From Thalassobius vesicularis (GTDB lineage: Bacteria; Pseudomonadota; Alphaproteobacteria; Rhodobacterales; Rhodobacteraceae): a stretch of DNA of 64,000 nucleotides. The notes under the pieces were generated by a model. The model did no database searches. It worked only from the letters and a program-made list of their open reading frames with translations, and was not told the origin of the DNA. Position 1 is the stretch's first letter, and each line of letters opens with the position of its first letter. Location: contig NZ_SSMD01000002.1 in assembly GCF_004799325.1 (NCBI RefSeq), positions 310,001 through 374,000 of the forward strand. The letters run 5' to 3'. Of this stretch, positions 32,323 to 33,147 are shown piece after piece. Made by a program: the position numbers and the translations under genes.

Positions 32323-32730
32323 TCAGCGCAACACGTGCACCGCGCAGCGGGCATGCCGCACCACCGCCGTCGCGGTCGAGCCCAGCAGAAAATCCTGCAT
32401 CCCCGGCCGGTGCGAGGCGATCACGATGCAATCCACGCCGTTTTCCGCAGCCCAATCCACGATGGTGCGGCCCGAATGCCCCTCGACCACCACGGCCTCG
32501 GCGTTCGGCAGGGCAACGCCCAGCGCGGCCAGCTCGGTTTCGATGGCGATGCGCGATTCGGCGATGTAGTCGGTCGGCATGTAGGAAATCGCGTAGCCGG
32601 GGATATGCTCCATCACGTGGATCAGGGTGATCTTTCCCCCCTCTTCACACAGGGCCTCGGCCACTTCGATGGCACCGGCGGCGTTGCGGTCACTGTCAAA
32701 GGAAACGGGCACAAGGATATTCGTGTACAT
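32323..32730 (-). CDS. Universal stress protein (UspA family)
   Basis: The 135-residue Usp-fold protein starts MYTNILVPVSFD and contains DCIVIASHRPGMQDFLLGSTATAVV. The G-x2-G-x9-G-S/T nucleotide loop is only partly matched, so ATP binding is uncertain. AGGAGG lies seven bases before the ATG at 32730. It is divergent from the DUF2892 gene, and an FNR-like box lies 55-68 bp upstream, which suggests induction under low oxygen. Confidence 0.92.
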   Translation of the reverse strand: MYTNILVPVSFDSDRNAAGAIEVAEALCEEGGKITLIHVMEHIPGYAISYMPTDYIAESRIAIETELAALGVALPNAEAVVVEGHSGRTIVDWAAENGVDCIVIASHRPGMQDFLLGSTATAVVRHARCAVHVLR

Positions 32731-32784
32731 GGCAGGGTCCTCCTGAGGTTTTGTCCATGGTGCGCCCAACGCCGCCTGCGCGCC

Positions 32785-32798
32785 TTGATACAGGTCAC
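32785..32798. promoter_or_regulatory. FNR/CRP-type box in the uspA/DUF2892 divergent region
   Basis: TTGATACAGGTCAC matches TTGAT-N4-ATCAA in 8 of 10 positions; GTCA-type right halves are common for FnrL in Rhodobacterales. It is 55 bp from the UspA ATG and 96 bp from the DUF2892 ATG. Confidence 0.5.
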
Positions 32799-32811: not shown

Positions 32812-32840
32812 TTGTATTCCGAATTTGGAATGTTTATATC
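32812..32840 (+). promoter_or_regulatory. DUF2892 promoter with embedded ATTC-N8-GAAT operator
   Basis: A -35 TTGTAT (32812-32817), a 17-bp spacer and a -10 TATATC (32835-32840) precede the DUF2892 gene by 53 bp. The dyad ATTCCGAATTTGGAAT (32816-32831) sits between them. It equals ATTC-N8-GAAT, the motif I recall for the persulfide-responsive repressor SqrR of Rhodobacter. DUF2892 membrane proteins often belong to sulfide or sulfane-sulfur regulons (BigR/SqrR). Bound repressor would block RNA polymerase. Confidence 0.65.
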
Positions 32841-32893: not shown

Positions 32894-33097
32894 ATGTCGA
32901 TTGATCGCGCAATGTTCCGTTTCGCTGGCATCATGGTGCTGCTGAGCGTCGTTCTGACCGTTTACGTGTCGCCCTATTTCATGTGGTTCACCGTGTTCAT
33001 CGGCGCGAATCTGCTGCAGTCGTCCTTCACCGGCTTTTGCCCGGCGGCCATGATCTTCAAAAAGCTGGGCTGCAAGTCCGGCTGCGCCTTCCAGTAA
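32894..33097 (+). CDS. DUF2892 (YgaP-type) inner-membrane protein
   Basis: The 67-residue protein has two hydrophobic segments (FAGIMVLLSVVLTVYVSPYF; FMWFTVFIGANLLQSSFTGF). The C-terminal GFCPAAMIFKKLGCKSGCAF carries several Cys residues. This matches DUF2892, the membrane domain fused to rhodanese in YgaP. The family is linked to handling of thiosulfate, sulfide or cyanide-related sulfur, although the exact activity is unproven. AAGGA lies nine bases before the ATG. The upstream operator suggests control by a persulfide sensor, and a strong terminator follows, so it is monocistronic. Confidence 0.88.
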   Translation: MSIDRAMFRFAGIMVLLSVVLTVYVSPYFMWFTVFIGANLLQSSFTGFCPAAMIFKKLGCKSGCAFQ

Positions 33098-33117: not shown

Positions 33118-33147
33118 AAAGGCCGCGCTTTCGGGCGCGGCCTTTTT
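33118..33147 (+). terminator. Intrinsic terminator of the DUF2892 gene
   Basis: AAAGGCCGCGC-TTTCGG-GCGCGGCCTTTTT lies 20 bp after the stop. Confidence 0.92.

Follow-up and report, generated by a model that had tools for sequence, protein, structure and literature searches.

A palindrome of the form ATTC-N8-GAAT lies upstream of a small DUF2892 gene of Thalassobius vesicularis, which raises the question of whether it serves as an operator and, if so, for which repressor. The DNA analyzed, referred to here as the window, is a stretch of 64,000 nucleotides (64 kb) of this genome. A sequence-only reading of the window had proposed a SqrR-type operator placed between the two hexamers of a promoter, from which a Cys-rich membrane protein would be derepressed by sulfane sulfur.

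The palindrome and its surroundings

The core of the palindrome, ATTCCGAATTTGGAAT, occupies positions 32816 to 32831 (no strand assigned) and begins 78 bp 5′ of the ATG of the DUF2892 gene. The match to ATTC-N8-GAAT is exact, at the coordinates originally given, and makes the core a putative repressor site of the SqrR/SoxR type. The extended 24-bp operator, TTGT-ATTC-N8-GAAT-GTTT (32812 to 32835, likewise without strand), scored 29.5 bits on a matrix trained without this site. The flanking hexamers that had been described were also found: a putative −35 element, TTGTAT (32812 to 32817, + strand), and, 17 bp after it, a putative −10 element, TATATC (32835 to 32840, + strand). Both are poor, matching their consensus in 3/6 and 4/6 letters, respectively, and a promoter scan of the window at a threshold of 9/12 found no pair around the operator.

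The gene itself (32894 to 33097, + strand; gene starts throughout are the matched ATG, predicted from sequence) encodes the expected 67-residue protein, a stand-alone YgaP-like transmembrane protein that matched Pfam PF11127 at 49.7 bits against a cut-off of 25.3. We take DUF2892 to be the former name of this family, YgaP-like_TM. A GC stem-loop followed by a T-run (33121 to 33147, + strand), read directly from the sequence, is a probable terminator at the end of the gene, which probably forms a single-gene unit; the automatic scan described above did not list this stem-loop. On the other side of the operator, a universal stress protein (Usp) gene of family PF00582 is transcribed divergently (32323 to 32733, − strand).

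Conservation of the palindrome at DUF2892 genes

Taken alone, the bare pattern occurs at about the level expected by chance. The window contains one match where 0.80 are expected, and 48 of 100 shuffled windows contained at least one. The genome-wide scan that had been proposed returned 29 exact sites in 3.79 Mb (46 contigs). The pattern is real as described, but a bare match has no statistical weight of its own. Thus, the observation was correct, yet unable alone to carry the operator interpretation.

Conservation was evaluated in 120 Rhodobacteraceae genomes, in which the family search gave 43 DUF2892 matches in 40 genomes; the best 30 of the 43, the T. vesicularis gene included, were taken as loci. 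In 22 of these best 30 loci, again with our own counted, an exact ATTC-N8-GAAT lies no more than 100 bp before the gene start. Dinucleotide shuffles of the same 30 upstream regions yielded a mean of 0.075 sites (also reported as 0.08) and a maximum of 1. Of the eight loci without an exact site, three (L031, L047, and L050) have the gene directly behind a gene for sulfide:quinone oxidoreductase (SQR); an exact operator lies just before SQR at L047 and is absent from this position at L031 and L050. Of the other five, L037 and L051 have seven of the eight letters, and L028, L045, and L052 have five or six. Among the remaining 13 weaker matches, which correspond to 12 loci, none had an exact site within 250 bp upstream, and two of the 12 still scored 25.4 and 27.2 bits on the operator matrix. 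The single genome of this weaker set in which no SqrR-like match was found, G019, scored 13.2.

A broader sample was drawn from titled genome records, a scan of which gave at least 580 confirmed DUF2892 relatives; 80 loci were kept. Fifteen of the 80 carry an exact site within 200 bp upstream at a spacing of 8, while spacings of 4 to 7 and 9 to 13 between the same half-sites each gave 0 or 1. According to their titles, the operator-bearing loci comprise 14 from Rhodobacteraceae, a placement that we assumed from their genera, and one from an unplaced alphaproteobacterium (L099). Among the 80 loci, the operator was found in none of those whose titles place them outside the alphaproteobacteria. 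Further, only 13 of the 42 distinct titled loci in which the gene is not behind SQR have the operator, which is therefore not a universal feature of the DUF2892 gene.

Finally, upstream regions were pooled and searched for inverted repeats in general. After removal of seven near-duplicates from 110, the set held 103 distinct regions, and 256 half-sites of four letters were tested at 17 spacings. Indeed, ATTC-N8-GAAT was the commonest such repeat, occurring in 35 of the 103 regions, against a mean of 0.535 and a maximum of 3 in dinucleotide shuffles. The runner-up, in 10 regions, can be read from the same palindrome. The palindrome is thus conserved at orthologous promoters, and because of this conservation the site stands far above chance. 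Its retention at one and the same gene across many relatives makes it very probably the docking site of a sulfide-sensing repressor.

The DUF2892 protein and its gene neighborhood

A search of the PDB with the family profile, at E values up to 1, gave a single match, 2mpn, the transmembrane domain of YgaP. The description of the protein as Cys-rich was overstated: three of the 67 residues are cysteines, and one of these is invariant among 17 aligned relatives. The invariant residue is the one in the sequence TGFCP, and 2mpn has a serine in its place; the term should therefore not be pressed.

The proposed link between DUF2892 proteins and BigR/SqrR sulfide regulons is supported by the neighborhoods of the family elsewhere. 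Neighboring genes were located using tblastn with chosen proteins, and several of the 80 titled loci are cut by contig ends; within approximately 6 kb of the DUF2892 gene, we found an SQR gene at 42 loci, a SqrR/BigR-like ArsR gene at 36, a rhodanese gene at 11, and a persulfide dioxygenase gene at seven. In 35 of the 80, the DUF2892 gene lies directly behind SQR, and none of the 15 operator-bearing loci has this arrangement. An exact operator upstream of SQR was found in three of these 35 SQR-DUF2892 operons, all rhizobial (L125, L141, and L152), with the stretch before the SQR start incompletely covered in at least two (L095 and L132). In one study, a DUF2892 gene of Azospira suillum was approximately 10-fold upregulated under sulfide oxidation, and a mutant showed a minor impairment in onset with the rate unchanged (PMC5358917). 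Another places a DUF2892 gene of Acaryochloris beside a rhodanese-like gene (PMC5295598).

In four gammaproteobacterial loci (L146, L158, L162, and L164), a different dyad, resembling ATTAGA...TCTAAT, was seen by eye before the gene. It may represent the version of the operator that the BigR-like repressor of these bacteria recognizes.

Genome-wide sites and the sox genes

The operator matrix has 24 columns and was trained on 34 other sites, with the window's site left out and that of its relative L087 included. On this matrix, the site ranks third among the 29 exact sites of the genome, and the next best place in the 64-kb window scored 18.0 bits. Nine of the exact sites scored above 20 bits. 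These include the window's own and those preceding soxC (30.1 bits) and soxX (25.9 bits); a 21.4-bit site precedes a hydrolase gene whose product has below-cut-off matches to SoxH-related families. The other five lie before or in genes whose function is unknown or not evidently related to sulfur.

Two small genes stand behind high-scoring sites. One (L055:9050-9463, − strand), behind a 30.3-bit site, encodes a protein of 137 residues that looks secreted by eye, and the other (L056:12991-13194, + strand), behind a 27.2-bit site, encodes a membrane-like protein, also judged by eye, of 67 residues. Neither product had a Pfam or NCBIfam match at an E value of 0.001, and both genes are candidate new members of the regulon. 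We also considered whether high-scoring sites were enriched between genes. With a crude gene caller, eight of the nine sites above 20 bits were intergenic versus five of the 20 below; this difference was set aside as partly an effect of composition in a GC-rich genome.

The matrix was then applied to 10 loci holding soxX together with a SoxR-like gene. In nine of the 10, the best place of the locus was within 400 bp upstream of SoxX, and scores upstream of SoxX ranged from 18.9 to 28.2 bits in nine of the 10. In the sox locus of T. vesicularis, the soxX site came second, behind the soxC site. The tenth locus, L186 (G104:C1:3079616-3085915), has only 9.5 bits in its soxX promoter. The SoxR-like protein of L186 lacks the second cysteine, the only such case among the 51 family proteins collected, and the sensing cysteine and the soxX operator may possibly have been lost together.

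The operator is thus common to the DUF2892 gene and to soxX and soxC among the known sulfur genes of this genome, and was not found at its SQR gene. The latter (C2:379806-381071), a close relative of solved SQRs, lies approximately 6 kb past the window, and nothing in the 20 kb retrieved around this gene scored as high as 10 bits. The genome also contains a blh-like split set of genes (ETHE1-like, Sulf_transp, and BLH_phosphatase; L205:10266-12578). An AT-rich dyad approximately 44 bp upstream of this set scored 13.3 bits and has diverged from ATTC-N8-GAAT.

Position of the operator relative to promoters

In 30 of the 35 sites, the operator overlaps or sits between the best promoter-like pair of hexamers, compared with 41% at random positions, a control weakened by composition effects in GC-rich genomes. 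In 12 of the 35, the right half-site forms part of the −35 element in an identical register, with TTGAAT, 17 bp, and TA at −10. The −10 element overlaps the operator in 16, and five show no overlap. In two, including that of the window, the operator lies between the two hexamers.

This last register is rare and is shared only with L087, the closest relative among the matches listed, whose protein is 85% identical and which has a divergent Usp gene too. When read from the sequence, the layout around the operator of L087, TTGCAT-17-TATACA, is the same as in the window, although the automatic choice took another pair there. These layouts would be compatible with a repressor that blocks RNA polymerase.

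Candidate repressors

The genome holds two homologs of SqrR/BigR with both conserved cysteines, as the operator proposal had anticipated. A search with Pfam HTH_5 gave seven matches in the genome, two of which are SqrR/SoxR-like: L017 (contig C6, 136 residues, PF01022) and L018 (contig C2, 112 residues, PF01022), the latter encoded inside the sox cluster. Neither gene is within the 64-kb window. When aligned with the ArsR-family chain found in PDB entries 13ct/6o8k, which we presume to be SqrR of Rhodobacter capsulatus, L017 shows 60 identities over 95 residues and L018 shows 58 over 96; in both, the two sensing cysteines are kept and align with those of this chain. SqrR-like matches were found in 110 of the 120 family genomes, so their presence alone discriminates little and lends weak support. 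Nor is L018 a BigR in the strict sense, as it scored 91.7 bits against the NCBIfam BigR model NF040642, below the cut-off of 155. Repression of the DUF2892 gene by L017 or L018 is likely.

Of the two, the regulator may be L018, that is, a sox-linked SoxR rather than a SqrR in the strict sense. The DUF2892 gene would then belong to a thiosulfate/Sox regulon instead of a SqrR regulon for defense against sulfide. This reading is a serious contender that we rate just short of evenly balanced. The gene for L018 is part of the sox cluster, where both soxX and soxC have high-scoring exact sites at their promoters. In a tree of the ArsR proteins, with starts chosen by rule and one set of ArsR loci being a chosen 20, L018 falls in the same half as the 13ct/6o8k chain and L017 in the other; however, the support is mostly weak, with 7 of 51 branches well supported. 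Moreover, L017-type matches of at least 140 bits are missing from 11 of the 22 genomes whose DUF2892 gene has an exact site, indicating that a repressor of the L017 type is not a general requirement. Against this reading, seven of the operator genomes also hold a related repressor without SoxX/SoxY nearby (L182, L183, L185, L188, L190, L192, and L195), and the recognition helices of L017 and L018, read from the sequence, are very similar, so that both may bind.

As for L017 itself, no exact sites were found near L017-type genes in 30 loci, and a 15.0-bit place precedes the L017 gene of T. vesicularis. This gene overlaps a modE-like gene, which is followed by a modA-like gene (L053:8452-10029; both labeled by eye), an unexpected neighborhood for a sulfane-sulfur sensor.

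Other possible regulators of the DUF2892 gene

Another element, an FNR/FixK-like box, TTGATACAGGTCAC (32785 to 32798, no strand assigned), lies in the gap that separates the DUF2892 gene from its divergent Usp neighbor and points to control by oxygen or NO. It matches the FNR/FixK consensus, TTGAT-N4-ATCAA, in 8 of 10 letters, and it also occurs at the matching place in L087. The box may serve the Usp gene, the DUF2892 gene, or both. An oxidoreductase-trxC-DUF2892 operon of Bradyrhizobium is listed in the NnrR regulon (PMC6710368), which also favors an FNR/FixK-type regulator. Nevertheless, it is improbable that such a regulator exerts the main control through the box and leaves the palindrome a secondary role: a box of 9/10 within 300 bp was found at only one (L045) of the 30 family loci, as against the palindrome at 22, and it may be the Usp gene that the box of the window controls. 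Conservation across the 30 loci thus gave no support to FNR as the main control.

Operators of this general shape also exist for ArsR, and the genome contains further ArsR-family matches (L016 and L019). Still, it is to the sox promoters that the matrix leads, and to SQR that the gene family does; recognition of the site by a different ArsR-family sensor, one for arsenic or a metal, is very unlikely. The last possibility, a chance palindrome without function, has in its favor that 0.8 exact matches would be expected in a window of this kind. It is contradicted by the conservation (22 of 30 loci, compared with a mean of 0.075 in shuffles) and by the strict spacing, and can practically be dismissed.

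Discussion

We conclude with good confidence that an ArsR-family repressor of the SqrR/SoxR/BigR kind uses the palindrome as its operator. Sensing of sulfane sulfur through the two cysteines of this repressor would derepress the DUF2892 gene. The claim of a SqrR-type operator is accordingly upheld in this wider form, through the conservation of the motif at the DUF2892 gene and the company that the gene family keeps with SQR and SqrR/BigR-like genes. The site and the operator class are well supported by the comparisons of sequence, and derepression by sulfane sulfur is the behavior expected of this repressor family.

The arrangement resembles four known systems. It shares the core and spacing of the SqrR operators of R. 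capsulatus, and the genome likewise contains two-cysteine SqrR-like repressors; unlike in that system, the target here is a stand-alone YgaP-like transmembrane gene, and the organism's own SQR gene is without such an operator. According to PMC9774250, ATTC-N8-GAAT is the deduced SqrR site, a similar sequence is present in the ygaVP region of Escherichia coli, and YgaV, a repressor of the same family, binds near the polymerase sites of ygaVP, where the promoter serves a gene that encodes this same transmembrane domain. However, YgaP contains a rhodanese domain and is encoded together with its repressor, whereas the protein of the window consists of the transmembrane domain alone. The SoxR of sox clusters, as in Hyphomicrobium denitrificans, is a two-cysteine ArsR repressor as well, and the soxX and soxC promoters of T. 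vesicularis share the operator; in contrast, no DUF2892 gene appears among the targets of SoxR or sHdrR in the available parts of PMC10451225 and PMC12423496. Finally, the blh-like split set recalls the BigR operon (blh) of Xylella and Agrobacterium, but L018 lies below the NCBIfam cut-off for BigR and the dyad before the set departs from ATTC-N8-GAAT. We found no report of a SqrR operator at a DUF2892 gene in the available parts of the literature on DUF2892, and the published list of SqrR targets may already include one.

If the operator acts as proposed, a reduced repressor dimer would occupy ATTC-N8-GAAT within the core promoter when sulfide is lacking and keep RNA polymerase off. We infer this exclusion from the position of the operator, which is akin to that reported for YgaV on ygaVP. 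Sulfide or thiosulfate would raise the level of persulfides, a sulfur bridge would form between the two cysteines, and the repressor would be released. Release would turn on the gene for the YgaP-like membrane protein as a unit of its own, and the sox genes would probably be induced alongside it; the soxX and soxC promoters bear the same operator. From the linkage of the genes, it is reasonable to guess that the protein would then work beside SQR at the membrane and probably aid in handling sulfane sulfur there.

A more general reading, which we offer tentatively as the less probable extension of these results, is that the stand-alone YgaP-like transmembrane protein is a general partner of SQR, which might, for example, accept or carry sulfane sulfur at the membrane, and that it is found in two regulatory forms. 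In many proteobacteria, the gene would be encoded directly behind SQR. In Rhodobacteraceae, it would be detached, with an SqrR/SoxR operator of its own that keeps the response to sulfide and that has settled in a few promoter registers, over the −35 element, over the −10 element, or, as in the window, between them.

This type of control is already known, and what is added is the link of an unexplained protein to the handling of sulfide. This small protein, widespread but functionally uncharacterized, thereby gains a regulatory and genomic context in sulfide oxidation and the sensing of sulfane sulfur, and the operator matrix appears to join the sox genes and scattered single genes in one sulfur regulon of the Rhodobacteraceae.
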